In this document: positions 35,960 to 46,025 of the stretch, piece after piece | Position numbering within the stretch: position 1 is the first letter of the stretch | How the letters are laid out: the number at the start of each line of letters is the position of its first letter | Assembly: GCF_900143005.1 (NCBI RefSeq) | Contig: NZ_FRCS01000001.1 | Location: 558,001-622,000 of the forward strand | Direction of reading: 5' to 3' | DNA: 64,000 bases | Origin: Cryptosporangium aurantiacum | GTDB lineage: Bacteria > Actinomycetota > Actinomycetes > Mycobacteriales > Cryptosporangiaceae | The notes under the pieces: generated by a model | Databases searched by the model: none | The model's input: the letters and a program-made list of their open reading frames with translations, nothing else | What the model was told of the DNA's origin: nothing | Program-made: the position numbers and the translations under genes

Positions 35960-38364
<2,405 letters not shown>

Positions 38365-40923: not shown

Positions 40924-41406
40924 TCAGTCCGATTCCGGGTGCTTTGTCAACCGGGACAGGTATAGCGGCTCGCCGAGCTTCTCGATCAGGTCGAGTTGAG
41001 TCTCGAGGTAGTCGATGTGGCTTTCCTCGTCCTTGAGGATGTCCTCGAAGATGTTCGCCGACGTGACGTCGCCGACCGACCGCATGTGGGCGATGCCCTC
41101 GCGGAGCCGAGTCACGGCCTCCTGCTCGATCAGCATGTCGCACCGGAACATCTCCGGCACGGTCTCGCCGATCCGCAGCGCCAGCAGCTTCTGGTAGTTC
41201 GGAAGCCCTTCCAGGAAGAGGATCCGATCGGTGAGCACCTCGGCGTGGCGCATCTCGTCGATCGACTCGTGCTTGGTGTGCGAAGCAAGAGTCGTGTAGC
41301 CCCAGTTCTCCTGCATCTTCGCGTGCAAGAAGTACTGGTTGATCGCGGTCAGCTCGGCGGTGAGCTGCTCATTGAGGAACTCGATGGTCCTCGCGTCGCC
41401 TTGCAT
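40924..41406 (-). CDS. bfr: Bacterioferritin
   Basis: A 160-residue heme-containing ferritin that oxidises and stores iron in a 24-subunit shell. The ferroxidase ligands fall at the E. coli positions: Glu18, Glu51, His54, Glu94, Glu127 and His130. The heme ligand Met52 is in SIDEMRHAEV. Thus it is a true Bfr rather than a heme-free ferritin. Its partner ferredoxin is encoded just upstream on the same strand, separated by a hairpin. The last residues (KHPESD) extend slightly past the usual end. Confidence 0.96.
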   Translation of the reverse strand: MQGDARTIEFLNEQLTAELTAINQYFLHAKMQENWGYTTLASHTKHESIDEMRHAEVLTDRILFLEGLPNYQKLLALRIGETVPEMFRCDMLIEQEAVTRLREGIAHMRSVGDVTSANIFEDILKDEESHIDYLETQLDLIEKLGEPLYLSRLTKHPESD

Positions 41407-41486
41407 GCCGGAGATCCTCCGTTCGGGTGTGGAGGCCTCACCCTAACTCCGCTCCGGCGTATTTTCCTGTTGTAGGGCACGACTCG

Positions 41487-41518
41487 CCGGTCGCAGACGT
41501 GTTCGTGTCTGCGACCGG
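41487..41518 (-). terminator. Hairpin terminator after bfd
   Basis: A perfect 12-bp stem (CCGGTCGCAGAC with GTCTGCGACCGG) and an 8-nt loop, 20 nt beyond the bfd stop and about 80 nt before bfr, so bfd and bfr are probably separate transcripts. Confidence 0.7.
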
Positions 41519-41537
41519 TCGGTACTGACCTTGCAGG

Positions 41538-41720
41538 TCAGGACGCTCGAGCCAGGGGCGCCTCACTGTCGCGAAGTAATCCACAGATTCGTTCGACGCA
41601 GGAACCGCAACCGGTGCCCGCGCCGCATGCCTCGCCGACGTCGAACTCGTCCTGTGCGCCGGCGTGGATCACCGACCTGATCTCGGCCTCGCGAACTCGC
41701 GCGCAGATGCAGACGTACAC
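41538..41720 (-). CDS. bfd: Bacterioferritin-associated ferredoxin
   Basis: A 60-residue [2Fe-2S] protein. Cluster cysteines Cys4, Cys6, Cys38 and Cys41 (YVCICARVRE and GTGCGSC) match the Bfd pattern exactly. Bfd reduces the bacterioferritin core so iron can be released, so it is needed when iron is scarce. The adjacent bfr gene and the upstream iron-box candidates support this role. Confidence 0.92.
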   Translation of the reverse strand: MYVCICARVREAEIRSVIHAGAQDEFDVGEACGAGTGCGSCVERICGLLRDSEAPLARAS

Positions 41721-41748
41721 GAGCTCACCCCCGGATGGTCGGTCAGGC

Positions 41749-41783
41749 TGTTGGTTAGCCTTGGCTCAGTAAGGCTTACCTAT
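41749..41783. promoter_or_regulatory. Two overlapping DtxR/IdeR iron boxes upstream of bfd
   Basis: CTCAGTAAGGCTTACCTAT (41765-41783) and GTTGGTTAGCCTTGGCTCA (41749-41767) each match about 13 of 19 positions of the IdeR consensus TTAGGTTAGGCTAACCTAA. They lie 29-63 bp upstream of bfd, in the right place for iron-dependent repression. The first contains the palindrome GTAAGGCTTAC. Binding is inferred. Confidence 0.65.
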
Positions 41784-41876
41784 CCTTCTCCGGGATGCAA
41801 GTGGTTGCCGGGATTCGCTCCCGACCCTGGGCATGTTGCGGTCTTAATGTCCGATATTTTTTGGGTCCGGAAACGG

Positions 41877-41906
41877 CCGAGGCGCCGCCGTAAGGCGACG
41901 CCTCGG
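41877..41906 (-). terminator. Terminator after type I DAHP synthase
   Basis: CCGAGGCG and CGCCTCGG form an 8-bp stem extended by 4 further pairs past one mismatch, 18 nt after the aroF stop on the minus strand. Confidence 0.7.
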
Positions 41907-41923
41907 ATCAGCCTCCGCGCTGG

Positions 41924-42949
41924 TCAGGGTGCGGGCGTGAGGGTCTTGCCGAGGGCGGGCGGGAGCGTACGCACCGCGGTCTCCAACTCGTCGAGGTCCG
42001 CACCGTGCAGGGCCTGCGGCCCGTCGCACTTGGCGACCTCCGGGTGCGGGTGGACGTCGATGAGCAGCCCGTCGGCGCCCACGCCGATCGCCGCTCGCGC
42101 CAGCGGCACGACCAGCTCCCGGCGGCCGGCCGCGTGGGACGGGTCGATCAGGACCGGCAGGTGGGAGAGCTGGTGCACCATCGGCACGGCCGAGACGTCC
42201 AGCATGTTCCGGATCGCGGACTCGAACGACCGCACTCCACGCTCGCACAGCACGATGTCGAGGTTGCCGCGCTGGGCGATGTACTCGGCGGCCATCAGCC
42301 ACTCCTCGTACGTCGCGGTGAGACCGCGCTTGAGCAGCACCGGCTTGCCCACCGCGCCGACCGCCTGCAGCAGCGCGAAGTTCTGCATGTTCCGGGTGCC
42401 GACCTGCAGCATGTCGGCGTACTCGGCGACCACGTCGACGTCCGCCGGGTCGACGATCTCGGTCACCACCGGCAGACCGGTCTCGGTCCGGACGTCGGCC
42501 AGGATCTTCAGGCCGTCGACGCCGAGGCCCTGGAACGCGTACGGCGACGTCCGGGGCTTGTAGGCGCCGCCGCGGAGCAGGGCGGCGCCCGCCCTCCGCG
42601 CCATCAGCGCGGCTTCCAGCGTCTGTTCCGGGGTCTCCACCGCACACGGACCGGCGATCAGCGTCACGCTGTCCGGACCGATCGGGACGCCCCGGACGTG
42701 AACGGTGGACGTTCGTAGATGGTTCTCGTGGCTCACGAGTTTGTACGGAGAGGTGATGCGGACCACCTCGGCGACGCCGGGTAGTCCCTCCACCTCCAAC
42801 GCGGCCAGGACCGATTCGCCGGCGACCACGCCGACGATCGTGCGGGTGACGCCGCGCGAGACGAACGCGGAACCGCCTGCCTCCTCGACCGTCGAGACGA
42901 CGGTGCGGAGTGCGCTGTCCGCGGCGTCAGGGCTCATCACGATGACCAT
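41924..42949 (-). CDS. aroF: 3-deoxy-7-phosphoheptulonate synthase, type I beta (AroF)
   Basis: A 341-residue DAHP synthase unrelated in sequence to the class II enzyme at 36029. Residues 1-70 form a ferredoxin-like regulatory domain of the kind that binds Tyr/Phe in Thermotoga DAHPS. The barrel carries LIAGPCAVETPEQ, LLRGGAYKPRTSPYAFQG, QVGTRNMQNF, KPVLLKRG and the metal-site DPSHAAGRRE. The ATG at 42949 follows an AGAGGAG ribosome site; the frame is open further up, through the leader. A leader peptide rich in aromatic codons and a terminator precede it, indicating attenuation. Confidence 0.95.
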   Translation of the reverse strand: MVIVMSPDAADSALRTVVSTVEEAGGSAFVSRGVTRTIVGVVAGESVLAALEVEGLPGVAEVVRITSPYKLVSHENHLRTSTVHVRGVPIGPDSVTLIAGPCAVETPEQTLEAALMARRAGAALLRGGAYKPRTSPYAFQGLGVDGLKILADVRTETGLPVVTEIVDPADVDVVAEYADMLQVGTRNMQNFALLQAVGAVGKPVLLKRGLTATYEEWLMAAEYIAQRGNLDIVLCERGVRSFESAIRNMLDVSAVPMVHQLSHLPVLIDPSHAAGRRELVVPLARAAIGVGADGLLIDVHPHPEVAKCDGPQALHGADLDELETAVRTLPPALGKTLTPAP

Positions 42950-42973
42950 GCGAAGTTCTCCTCTAAAACGACG

Positions 42974-42998
42974 AGCCCCGGGCCTGGGGCCCGGGGCT
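42974..42998 (-). terminator. Attenuator (conditional terminator) of aroF
   Basis: AGCCCCGGGCC and GGCCCGGGGCT form a perfect 11-bp GC stem around CCA/TGG; on the minus strand it is followed 5 nt later by TTTT and, 24 nt on, by the aroF start. Its 5' arm includes CCCGGG, which can also pair with a CCCGGG inside the leader coding region (43058-43063), a plausible antiterminator when a ribosome stalls at the aromatic codons. Confidence 0.8.
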
Positions 42999-43026
42999 GT
43001 CGGAAGGATTCCTGCGGCGTGCGCTT

Positions 43027-43095
43027 CTAGTACAGCGCGACTGGCCGCCGGGGGACGCCCGGGCGGTCGCCATACCAAAAGAAACGCTGCTGCAT
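43027..43095 (-). CDS. Leader peptide of the aroF attenuator (Phe-Phe-Trp-Tyr)
   Basis: A 22-residue open frame on the minus strand: Met-Gln-Gln-Arg followed at residues 5-8 by Phe-Phe-Trp-Tyr (codons TTC TTT TGG TAT), ending ..VALY and stop TAG. Three different aromatic amino acids in a row in a short frame just before an attenuator and a DAHP synthase gene is the classic arrangement for translation-controlled attenuation. Starvation for any of them would stall the ribosome and allow read-through. The ribosome site (TAGGC) is weak. A small hairpin (GCGCT/AGCGC, 43021-43038) covers the stop codon. Confidence 0.8.
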   Translation of the reverse strand: MQQRFFWYGDRPGVPRRPVALY

Positions 43096-43143
43096 GATTC
43101 GAAGCCTAGCCGATCACATGCGTACTGGGCTGTCGGGTGTCCG

Positions 43144-44019
43144 TCACCCCGCGGCGAGGCGACGGAGGAGCGTGATGTCGGCGGCGTGGCCGGCACCGTC
43201 GTCCTCCGACGGCGTCTCCACGACGATCGGGACACCCGCCGCGGCCGGGTGCGTGAACAGCGCGGCGAAGCCGTCGACGCCGATCGTCCCCTCGCCCAGC
43301 GTGGTGTGCCGGTCCCGCAACGAGCCGGCCGGGTCGCGGGAGTCGTTCGCGTGCACCAGCGCCAGCCGACCCGGTCCCACGGTGTCGACGAGCGTGTCGA
43401 GCGTCTTCGTCAGGCCGCCGGGTTCGGCCAGGTCGTGTCCGGCCGCGTGCGCGTGGCAGGTGTCCAGACACACGCGCAGCCGCGGATGGGCGTCCACCGC
43501 CGCGAAGTACTCGGCGAGGTCCTCCACCCGGGACGCGAGCGCGAACCCGCCGCCCGCGGTCGGCTCGACCAGCAGGTCCGGATCCTCCGGGGTGAGTTCG
43601 TCGAGCAGCGGCAGCAGGTGCTCGCGCAGCTGTCCGTAGGCCGCGGCCCGGCGCTCGGTGGCCAGCGACGACCCGGCGTGGAACACCACCCCGCGCGCGC
43701 CGATCGCCCGGCCCCGCGCCACCGCATGGCGCAGCGACGCGACCGACTTCTCCACCGTCGCCTCGACGTTCGAGCCGAGGTTCACCAGGAACGTGGCGTG
43801 GATGAACACCGCGATGCCGCGCTCCGCCGCCCAGGCCGCGAACCGCTCGTCCTGCGCGGGCACGCCGGCCGCCAGGGCCCACCCGCGCGGGTTGGAGACG
43901 AACACCTGCACGGTGGTCGCCCCGATCCGCTCCGCGTAGGGGATCGCGCGCTTCGCGAGCCCTCCGGAGGCCGGGACGTGAGCCCCGAGAACGGGCTGGT
44001 TGAGAGGCAGCGGAGACAC
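43144..44019 (-). CDS. nfo: Endonuclease IV (AP endonuclease)
   Basis: A 291-residue TIM-barrel zinc enzyme cleaving DNA at abasic sites. Motifs: LGAHVPASGGLAKR, FVSNPRGW, FIHATFLVNLGS, VFHAGSS, LLVEPTAGGGFAL, VCLDTCHAHAAGHDL, LVHANDSRDPAGSLRDRH and IVVETPSED, which supply the His, Glu and Asp metal ligands. The GTG start at 44019 is 11 bp beyond the kinase stop. It is followed closely by the aroF leader region, so the aroF promoter must lie in the 48-bp gap or inside nfo. Confidence 0.94.
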   Translation of the reverse strand: MSPLPLNQPVLGAHVPASGGLAKRAIPYAERIGATTVQVFVSNPRGWALAAGVPAQDERFAAWAAERGIAVFIHATFLVNLGSNVEATVEKSVASLRHAVARGRAIGARGVVFHAGSSLATERRAAAYGQLREHLLPLLDELTPEDPDLLVEPTAGGGFALASRVEDLAEYFAAVDAHPRLRVCLDTCHAHAAGHDLAEPGGLTKTLDTLVDTVGPGRLALVHANDSRDPAGSLRDRHTTLGEGTIGVDGFAALFTHPAAAGVPIVVETPSEDDGAGHAADITLLRRLAAG

Positions 44020-44030
44020 GATCGGCCAGG

Positions 44031-46025
44031 CTACCCGGTGATGATGCTGACCTCGGTGCCTGCAGCCACGAGCGTGCCGGCCGGTGGGTACTGGAAGATC
44101 ACCCGCGCGTCGTCATCGTCCCCACCGCCCCGCCGGGACACCTTCAGCCCGGCTTCGCGGAGCTCGTCGCGGGCGTCGTCGAACTCCTCGCCGGTGACGT
44201 CGGGGATCTCCACCTGCGACTGGCCCTGTGCGACCTTCAGCACGATTTTCTGGGAGCTGGAGACCTGGCCCGGACTCGGCGTCTGGTTGGTCACCAGACC
44301 CGCCTGCTCCGGGTCGGTGACCGTATCGTCGATCTGGATGTCGTACGCCAGGTCGAGTTCCTCGAGCGTCTGTTCCGCCTCCTCGCGGGACTTGCCCTTG
44401 AGGTCGGGCAGCGTGATGCCCTTGCCCTTGCTGAGGATGATCGTGACCGTCGATCCGCGCTCGACCTTGGTGCCGAGCGCAGGAGACGTCGAGATCAGCT
44501 TGTTCGCGTCGATGTCCTCGCTGAACTCGAAGTCGGGCGTGGTCTTGAACCCAACCTTCTTCAGGGCTTCCTCGACGTCACCCTTGCTCTTACCGCGGAG
44601 GCTCTTCGGGATCTCGACGACGTCGGGGCCCTTGGAGATCGTCACGGTGACCGTGCCGCCCTTGCGGATCCGCCCGTCCGGCTTCGGTGACTGCTTGAAC
44701 ACCCGGCCGGCGAGCGCGGTCTTGTCGAACTCCTGGCGGATCTCGATCTTCAGGCCGGCCGCCTGCGCGCGTGCGGTCGCGTCGGCCGAGTTGAGCTCGT
44801 AGAACTGCGGTGTCGACGTGTAGCGGCCGATCCCGAGATACCAGCCGGTGCTGGCTGCGACGAGCGCGAGCACCAGCCCGACGGCGATGATCGCGAGCTT
44901 GCGCTGCTGTGGGTTCAGCCGTCCCAGCGGACCGGGGAGCGCGGCCGCGTGGCCACCGCCGCCCGGACGGTGCGGTGGCGGCATCCCGCCGGGCATCATC
45001 GCGGTGCCCCGCGGGTCACCGGCCCTGGGGACGACCTGGGTGTGCTGACCAGGCGCGGTCGGCACCGGCACCGCGGCGGACGCGGTGACGGTGTTCGTCG
45101 GCGGGCCGCTCTGCGGGCTCAGGCCGGCGAGGATGCCGGTGCCCGAGACGCTGCGGGTGCCGCGTCCGTCGATCTCGTCGCGCACCGCACGCAGTTCCTC
45201 GAGGAACGCGCCGGCGTCGGCCGGGCGGGCGTTCGGGTCGCGGCGGGTCGCGCGCATCGTCAGCTCGTCGAGTGCGGGCGGTACTAGCGGAGCCCGGGAC
45301 GACGGCGCGGGCACGTCCGCGTGGACGTGCTGGAACGCGATGTTCACCGAGGAATCGCCGCCGTACGGCACCGACCCGGTAAGCATCTCGAACAGCATGA
45401 TGCCCGCTGAGTACACGTCGCTGCGCGTGCTGGCCTGGCCGTACGTGATCTGCTCCGGCGAGACGTAGGCCACTGTGCCCATCACCACACCGCGGGTCGA
45501 CGTGGGCCCGACGGACGCGACCGCGCGCGCCAGCCCGAAGTCGGCGACCTTGACCGCGCGGCCGTCCGCGCCGATCAGGACGTTCTCCGGCTTCACGTCG
45601 CGGTGGACCATGCCGTGCCGGTGGGCCGCGGCGAGCGCGTCGAGCACCGGGTCGAGGATCGCCAGCGCGTCGGCGGCGGGGAGCCGCCCGCGCGCGGCCA
45701 GGACCTCGCGGAGCGTCCGGCCCTGAACCTGCTCCATCACCAGGAACGCCAGGCCCTCGTGTACGCCCTGGTCGTACACGGCGACGACGTGCGGGTGGCT
45801 CAGCGCCGCCGCCGAGCGCGCCTCCTGGATGAACCGATGGACGAACGACGGGTCGGCGGCGTACCCGGGGTGCATGATCTTGACCGCGACGGTCCGTTCC
45901 AGACGCTCGTCGACGGCGTCGTACACGGTCGCCATGCCGCCGCGCGCGATCCGCCCCCGAATTCGGTAGCGGCCTTCGAGCACGGTACCCACCAAGGGGT
46001 CGGCCAGCGTCCTGTCCACGGGCAT
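44031..46025 (-). CDS. pknL: PknB/PknL-type Ser/Thr kinase with four PASTA domains
   Basis: A 664-residue transmembrane kinase. The kinase domain (about residues 17-275) has RIARGGMATVYDA, VAVKIM, HRDVKPENVL, DFGLA and SPEQITYGQAS. A Pro-rich juxtamembrane stretch leads to a helix near residue 385 (LAIIAVGLVLALVAA), then four extracellular PASTA repeats that bind peptidoglycan fragments. The divergent neighbour resembles Rv2175c, the M. tuberculosis PknL substrate, which supports the pknL assignment. M. tuberculosis PknL itself lacks four PASTA repeats as far as I recall, so the symbol is tentative. Confidence 0.88.
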   Translation of the reverse strand: MPVDRTLADPLVGTVLEGRYRIRGRIARGGMATVYDAVDERLERTVAVKIMHPGYAADPSFVHRFIQEARSAAALSHPHVVAVYDQGVHEGLAFLVMEQVQGRTLREVLAARGRLPAADALAILDPVLDALAAAHRHGMVHRDVKPENVLIGADGRAVKVADFGLARAVASVGPTSTRGVVMGTVAYVSPEQITYGQASTRSDVYSAGIMLFEMLTGSVPYGGDSSVNIAFQHVHADVPAPSSRAPLVPPALDELTMRATRRDPNARPADAGAFLEELRAVRDEIDGRGTRSVSGTGILAGLSPQSGPPTNTVTASAAVPVPTAPGQHTQVVPRAGDPRGTAMMPGGMPPPHRPGGGGHAAALPGPLGRLNPQQRKLAIIAVGLVLALVAASTGWYLGIGRYTSTPQFYELNSADATARAQAAGLKIEIRQEFDKTALAGRVFKQSPKPDGRIRKGGTVTVTISKGPDVVEIPKSLRGKSKGDVEEALKKVGFKTTPDFEFSEDIDANKLISTSPALGTKVERGSTVTIILSKGKGITLPDLKGKSREEAEQTLEELDLAYDIQIDDTVTDPEQAGLVTNQTPSPGQVSSSQKIVLKVAQGQSQVEIPDVTGEEFDDARDELREAGLKVSRRGGGDDDDARVIFQYPPAGTLVAAGTEVSIITG

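Follow-up and report, generated by a model that had tools for sequence, protein, structure and literature searches.

The closest described counterpart to the locus reported here is C. glutamicum aroF, which encodes a DAHP synthase of a different subfamily; its leader, aroR, was reportedly first described by Neshat et al. in 2014. In E. coli, three DAHP synthase isoenzymes together with repressors answer to the three end products, and the trp and pheA attenuators of this organism consist of a leader ORF with control codons and a terminator and antiterminator that are mutually exclusive. Passages of PMC11802643 name TyrR and TrpR as E. coli repressors and pheA, trp and pheST as attenuators. According to the portions of PMC4046766, PMC11802643 and PMC7356990 that bear on it, C. 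glutamicum aroF is preceded by an attenuator whose leader, aroR, contains Phe-Tyr-Phe. The relevant part of PMC11802643 gives expression of the aroF operon as increased on Phe limitation and Tyr availability as without effect, and an extract of PMC7356990 describes control of aroF by Phe and Tyr. Because Tyr availability is described as without effect despite the Tyr codon of aroR, an aromatic codon is not proof of a signal.

The eight leaders tabulated for Streptomyces lividans in an extract of PMC8079986 include none for DAHP synthase or chorismate mutase, and in none of the eight do the control codons cover Phe, Tyr and Trp together. An excerpt of a 2005 survey of RNA regulation in actinobacteria reports no conserved RNA structures upstream of Phe/Tyr operons (PMC1262725). 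Among the papers listed in searches of the literature outside most subscription journals, we found none on a chorismate mutase leader in actinomycetes and none on a leader with three aromatic amino acids before a DAHP synthase gene.

Here we describe a predicted attenuator before aroF in a 64,000-nucleotide stretch of the Cryptosporangium aurantiacum genome, which we call the window, and its relatives in other genomes.

Results

The preliminary description of the window had proposed that a 22-codon frame with Phe, Phe, Trp and Tyr at codons 5-8 is followed by an 11-bp GC hairpin with TTTT and then by aroF, and that a CCCGGG in the leader can pair with the 5′ arm of the terminator. The frame is exactly as stated, the hairpin runs from 42998 to 42974 and the domains of aroF are confirmed (Table 1); the CCCGGG is present at 43063-43058, is complementary to the 5′ arm and, as detailed below, covaries with it across clades. 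The Tyr at the end of the frame, to which the same description had pointed, is indeed codon 22 (TAC), but the leaders of three other genomes of the genus, among them MQQRFYFWYGYRPGSPRRLVALH, have His, Leu and His there and otherwise keep the element, so that this residue carries no weight.

Table 1. Features of the aroF leader region, the second DAHP synthase gene of the window and the related element elsewhere in the genome
Feature	Position	Strand	Basis and remarks
Class-II DAHP synthase gene (PF01474)	36056-37342	+	Some 4.6 kb away from the aroF end
aroF, 3-deoxy-7-phosphoheptulonate (DAHP) synthase	41924..42949	-	ATG 42949, stop ends 41924; B. subtilis type with N-terminal ferredoxin-like domain (Pfam PF00793 + PF18152, TIGR01361)
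Shine-Dalgarno-like AGAGGAGAA of aroF	42956..42964	-	Not within the hairpin; sequence, by eye
TTTT	42968-42965	-	Five bases beyond the terminator stem
Intrinsic terminator hairpin C:D	42974..42998	-	11-bp stem with 10 G-C pairs, 3-nt loop, -25.2 kcal/mol
Segment C, CCCGGGC, terminator 5′ arm and putative antiterminator partner of A	42989..42995	-	Helix search, swapped-partner test, pair counts
Segment B, CCCCGGCGG, putative rival of the antiterminator	43045..43053	-	MFE fold of the window; partner in the leader hairpin is 43066-43058
Segment A, GCCCGGG, putative antiterminator strand inside the leader ORF	43058..43064	-	Best ungapped helix with the terminator 5′ arm; swapped-partner test; pair counts
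Control codons TTC TTT TGG TAT (Phe5 Phe6 Trp7 Tyr8)	43072..43083	-	Sequence
Leader peptide ORF MQQRFFWYGDRPGVPRRPVALY	43027..43095	-	ATG start, 22 codons; sequence and ORF listing
-10-like hexamer TAGGCT	43103..43108	-	7 nt upstream of the leader start codon; sequence
Sister element, Phe-Phe-Tyr leader and GC terminator	L421 1296-1361 (G000:C12)		Same genome, before chorismate mutase

The leader element sits in the gap after nfo, which lies upstream on the same strand, and its U-tract is short, since the TTTT begins only five bases past the stem. Among the 406 short ORFs (10-40 aa, both strands) of the window, this frame is the only one with four consecutive F/W/Y residues, and a further 911 short ORFs, from 127.5 kb surrounding 30 genes for class-II DAHP synthase, include none. 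A search of 41000-45000 with Rfam covariance models at E up to 10 gave three matches, none of which reached its gathering score, lay in the leader or came from a leader, T-box or riboswitch family. A consensus promoter scan gave no sigma-70 match, and a plasmid search gave no match. The genome has a single match for the aroF of the window.

Matches to this aroF were obtained in 39 of 101 genomes of one collection and 133 of 394 of another. We surveyed up to 400 nt before 237 aroF relatives (the locus itself, 35 relatives, 121 class members and 80 contig loci), leaving out two loci with short flanks (L168, L193), partial matches and distant paralogues; seven locus pairs are identical across two collections, which gives 230 distinct upstream sequences. 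A leader was called where an ATG or GTG frame of 8-45 codons held at least three aromatic codons within 10 codons, a TANNNT hexamer ended 5-9 nt upstream of the start codon, and at most 75 nt past the stop lay a hairpin with 8 bp or more, including at least six G-C pairs and with one mismatch tolerated. This rule called 92 of the 237 loci (90 of the 230 distinct sequences), compared with 0/237 reverse strands and 0/237 shuffled sequences (one simple shuffle each). Loss of the aromatic codons in orthologous leaders, which had been named beforehand as evidence against the proposal, is the opposite of this outcome. Of the 92 leaders, 80 include Trp and 78 have codons for Phe, Tyr and Trp alike.

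By this rule 145 of the 237 loci lack the element, which is thus not universal. Leader and terminator recur beside aroF in many families. By group, the calls were 1/1 for the window locus, 10/35 for relatives, 65/121 for class members, 15/29 for the named actinobacterial contigs L002-L030 and 1/51 for the other contigs, L031-L081. Among the carriers with names are Nocardiopsis, Planotetraspora, Microbispora, Microtetraspora, Actinomadura, Spirillospora and one Nocardioides. For further tests we used a curated set of 67 distinct leaders, picked by eye with near-identical ones dropped, of which 66 are also called by the rule. Codons for Phe and for Tyr each occur in 66 of these leaders and Trp codons in 55, leaving 12 with no Trp.

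Two observations on individual loci were made by the way. In four loci without a leader (L004, L030, L095 and L219, of which L030 and L219 are identical in sequence), what looks by eye like the end of a PASTA protein precedes aroF, so that in several relatives lacking the element aroF may lie directly downstream of a pknB-like gene; in the window a pknB-like gene (44031-46025) is one gene further upstream, and L086 has both the PASTA-like sequence and a leader before aroF. The aroF leader peptide of a contig labelled Glycomyces fuscus (L014) is identical to that of a Nocardiopsis locus (L007), and it is possible that this assembly is mislabelled or contaminated.

In all 67 curated leaders a TANNNT hexamer ends 6-9 nt upstream of the start codon, where 2.0 would be expected from shuffled 30-mers; the start codons were chosen by eye, some among several in-frame options, and this favours the spacing result. 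A Shine-Dalgarno-like motif precedes only one of the 67. The -10 spacing and the near absence of Shine-Dalgarno motifs are most simply read as a leaderless transcript, and the leader mRNA thus probably starts at the first codon of the leader.

Segment A lies immediately behind the aromatic codons. We compared the best A:C helix of each leader when formed with its native arm and with arms from other species: across the 67 leaders the native mean was -17.39 kcal/mol and the swapped mean -14.85 kcal/mol (z -7.5, 0/5000 permutations). The excess remained when only the 52 distinct C arms (z -6.3) or the 19 distinct arm cores (z -4.0) were used. None of five control segments paired with C in excess. 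They were the remainder of the ORF, the 5′ part of the ORF, two segments further upstream and the stretch from stop to terminator, and the last of these paired with C worse than swapped ones (z +3.7). A B:C pairing, corresponding to the arrangement of E. coli trp, was also tried and was rejected in favour of A:C, because it showed no excess over swapped partners (z +1.4).

Pairs were also counted on an alignment of 32 sequences (A1). Several pairs of the terminator stem are altered on both sides among these 32 relatives. The A:C helix had a covariation score of 0.166, against 0.080 +/- 0.013 for shuffles and at most 0.051 when the helix was slid, a score that reflects few independent events, since the changes track a few clades, and in which the genus of the window counts partly as mismatches because its pairing register is shifted by one column. 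Most of the A:C covariation comes from columns 49-138 (C-G 14, G-C 10) and 51-136 (G-C 17, A-U 10); two of five measures, the number of pairs with two-sided changes (156/500 shuffles as high) and of further pair types (330/500), did not rise above the shuffles. The A:B helix scored 0.228 (0.113 +/- 0.015 shuffled, at most 0.145 slid), counted on the relatives' alignment, in which the genus of the window is placed differently in the B part. Its columns 49-72 (C-G 18, G-C 10) share column 49 of A with the A:C helix, and a column that covaries with both B and C is what would be expected if A:B and A:C were mutually exclusive.

We also modelled folding with a ribosome on the leader. For the window RNA up to the terminator loop, the predicted probability that the C arm is paired with upstream RNA was 0.13 when the RNA was free of ribosomes and 0.69-0.79 when a ribosome was stalled on codons 5-8. 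With the ribosome at the stop codon it was 0.68 if A was allowed to pair across the ribosome and 0.06 once the RNA upstream of the ribosome was barred from pairing. The family means over the 67 leaders were 0.81 at the first aromatic codon, 0.62 with no ribosome and 0.74 at the stop in the permissive setting. The contrast is clear against the ribosome-free state and weak against the permissive stop and across the family; the model therefore fits the proposed mechanism for the window leader but separates the states poorly for the family as a whole.

We searched 296 genomes with a covariance model built from A1 (R1). The 28 top-ranking matches (E up to 1.7e-12) were all at aroF loci, and many of the weaker full-length matches, from E 2.2e-10, fell in one genus (g64), which we guess is probably Streptomyces. 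In a sample from this genus a chorismate-mutase-like gene adjoined 26 of 26 fetched matches (tblastn), and PF01817 was found in the four proteins tested from these loci. Many other weak matches cover the terminator part of the model only. Examples of the leaders next to chorismate-mutase-like genes are MFTQTTFFFTYGNRPAGRHGRAA and MLTQTTFLFTYGNRPTGCHGRAA. The C. aurantiacum genome has its own, MVRLTARFFYGSGHPAAVIVV, before chorismate mutase at G000:C12:104904-105065; two other PF01817 genes of the same genome (L399, L400) showed no leader.

Further chorismate mutase leaders were gathered from PF01817 matches and fetched loci, and the 53 compiled represent only loci at which a leader was found. 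The scan found none at 9 of the first 20 fetched loci, two of which (L396, L397) were added by eye, and none at 15 of the second 20, two of these 15 being incomplete in sequence and two (L409, L411) likewise being added by eye, as was L338. The 30 best PF01817 matches read like another type of chorismate mutase; of the 24 that could be oriented, four (L351, L352, L354, L375) have an aromatic-rich upstream frame, none similar by eye to the window leader. Upstream of the different-type gene at L352, from about position 1119, is a short frame reading YVWWWICW, which may be the Trp leader of some other gene or a chance occurrence.

The two groups of leaders differ in their codons. Trp codons are present in 6 of the 53 chorismate mutase leaders and in 55 of the 67 DAHP synthase leaders (Fisher p 2e-15, assuming an independence that the sequences lack). 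In nine genomes in which we located both leaders (C. aurantiacum, G310, G293, G319, G193, G135, G284, G277 and G328; eight of the nine in one family, f31), Trp occurs in 9/9 DAHP synthase leaders and 0/9 chorismate mutase leaders. The codon content thus follows the products of the gene, Trp being mostly missing before chorismate mutase. The A:C pairing holds in the chorismate mutase set, more weakly than in the DAHP synthase set: z was -5.3 on 46 of the 53 leaders (seven skipped) and -2.1 on 20 distinct arms (100/5000). It supersedes an initial test in which A was poorly defined and which gave z -2.7 on 53 and -1.1 on 33 distinct ones. A -10 count for the chorismate mutase leaders (52/53) was not used; it is circular, because the start codons had been picked by the -10 motif.

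The window carries two DAHP synthase genes of different types, of which one, aroF, has the putative attenuator. No aromatic leader ORF was seen upstream of the class-II gene, which appears by eye to be leaderless itself, and a crude scan before 30 class-II genes, many with guessed orientation, found frames with at least three aromatic codons before eight, none similar by eye to the window leader. The trpE of the genome showed no upstream frame with two or more Trp codons. Near aroF, at about 41750-41785 on the minus strand, are two palindromic stretches which, going by the IdeR/DtxR consensus, we take to be iron-box-like; they precede the genes of a BFD-like ferredoxin, at 41538-41720, and of a ferritin-like protein, at 40924-41406.

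Discussion

Our results suggest that the element before aroF is a ribosome-mediated transcription attenuator that ties DAHP synthase expression to charged tRNA-Phe, tRNA-Trp and tRNA-Tyr together, a reading to which we give a probability of about 0.88. It has a short ORF with clustered end-product codons and an intrinsic terminator, albeit with a short U-tract, before the structural gene, and comparative evidence points to an antiterminator that shares an arm with the terminator and cannot coexist with a second hairpin in the leader. Within what sequence can show, the preliminary proposal of an aroF attenuator is upheld by the conserved aromatic codons and the A:C covariation.

In the mechanism that we propose, RNA polymerase would start at or next to the leader ATG, and a ribosome would load on the 5′ end of the transcript. 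If all three tRNAs are charged the ribosome would pass, the aromatic codons and A would fold onto the later part of the leader (A:B), and C:D would terminate transcription before aroF. A stall at codon 5, 6, 7 or 8 would block the outer A:B hairpin, allowing A:C to form and transcription to read through into aroF. Since the four control codons stand side by side, the same stall should follow whichever of the amino acids is short, and the leader would act as an OR gate. Comparison between species supports the conservation of the leader, the terminator, and A:B and A:C as pairings that exclude each other; the leaderless start, the stalling, the read-through and the response to the individual amino acids we infer.

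Of the 92 rule-called DAHP synthase leaders, 80 retain Trp codons, whereas such codons are rare (6/53) before chorismate mutase, which would be hard to explain were Trp not read. This bears on a narrower reading, in which the attenuator responds to just one amino acid (Phe, for instance) or to two, and the other aromatic codons are passengers or serve fine-tuning. Such partial sensing seems possible but rather unlikely to us; it can appeal to the absence of Trp from 12 of the 67 leaders and to C. glutamicum, where, according to part of PMC11802643, Phe limitation matters and Tyr availability does not, the Phe-Tyr-Phe of aroR notwithstanding.

A different concern is whether the intrinsic hairpin is the controlling element at all, since the leader ribosome could act mainly by protecting the transcript, through translation coupling or control by Rho. 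The short U-tract and the weak thermodynamic contrast across the family would fit this, yet the hairpin is strong and GC-rich with a covarying stem, and the A:C covariation is specific to its 5′ arm, so we regard such control as improbable. A leader peptide that acts in trans as a small protein, and is conserved for its own sake, we consider highly improbable: a part resembling Y-G-x-R/G-P does recur at the protein level, but the peptides diverge widely outside the aromatic part while the RNA pairings are kept, and the codons past the aromatic ones track the terminator arm of the same species. That the element is a plain nfo terminator with a chance ORF ahead of it, as its location downstream of nfo in the same orientation might suggest, is hardly credible given the recurrence of leader and terminator beside aroF in many families, the promoter-like hexamers at a fixed distance and the covariation inside the ORF.

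The attenuator reading was first put forward for the pathway-entry enzyme. That part of the picture holds, but the same type of leader also stands before chorismate mutase, mostly without Trp, so that its range is wider than first thought. We lean towards the view that the actinomycetes have one old family of leaderless aromatic attenuators, re-used at two upper nodes of the pathway on non-homologous enzymes, with a codon set that matches the products of each node, Phe, Tyr and Trp at DAHP synthase and Phe and Tyr at chorismate mutase, Trp being gained or lost with the gene, and with an OR gate over the three charged tRNAs. The sister element in the same genome would then sense just the two products that lie beyond chorismate mutase. 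The first enzyme of the shikimate pathway has to respond to three end products; a 22-codon frame would achieve this in one cis element, a task for which other bacteria use several regulated isoenzymes. The pair of aroF and chorismate mutase leaders offers a natural experiment on how attenuator codons evolve with pathway topology, and the leaders are defined targets for the engineering of aromatic compounds and their precursors in actinomycetes.

Compared with the attenuators of E. coli trp and pheA, the window leader is alike in its short ORF with control codons and in a terminator and antiterminator that would exclude each other. It differs in having control codons for three amino acids, in probably lacking a 5′ UTR and Shine-Dalgarno sequence, and in that the putative antiterminator strand (A), directly behind the control codons, forms the 5′ and not the 3′ arm of the leader hairpin.

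In that its ORF with amino-acid codons probably begins at the 5′ end of the transcript, the putative element also resembles the S. lividans leaders and the cysteine-rich uORFs of mycobacteria, as described in parts of PMC8079986 and PMC4633059, which in several cases are likewise followed by a terminator. As a side observation, two weak matches of our covariance model (L332, L339) lie before genes that by eye resemble threonyl-tRNA synthetase genes, and the extract of PMC8079986 lists a Thr leader upstream of thrS in S. lividans.

The nearest comparison remains aroR. The preliminary description knew of no described leader of this kind; an attenuator of a DAHP synthase gene was in fact already known from C. 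glutamicum, so that one before aroF is not unprecedented. Going by the published descriptions of aroR, both are leader peptides that carry aromatic codons and precede DAHP synthase genes of actinomycetes, and aroR differs in its Phe-Tyr-Phe, the stretch named containing no Trp. A possible link between the two is a locus of family f8 (L337, genome G352), whose leader MQRAYFWFSRPAPGGSASDAMR is followed by a different terminator sequence and by a gene whose first 110 residues match PF00793 and which, by eye, reads like an E. coli-type DAHP synthase I.
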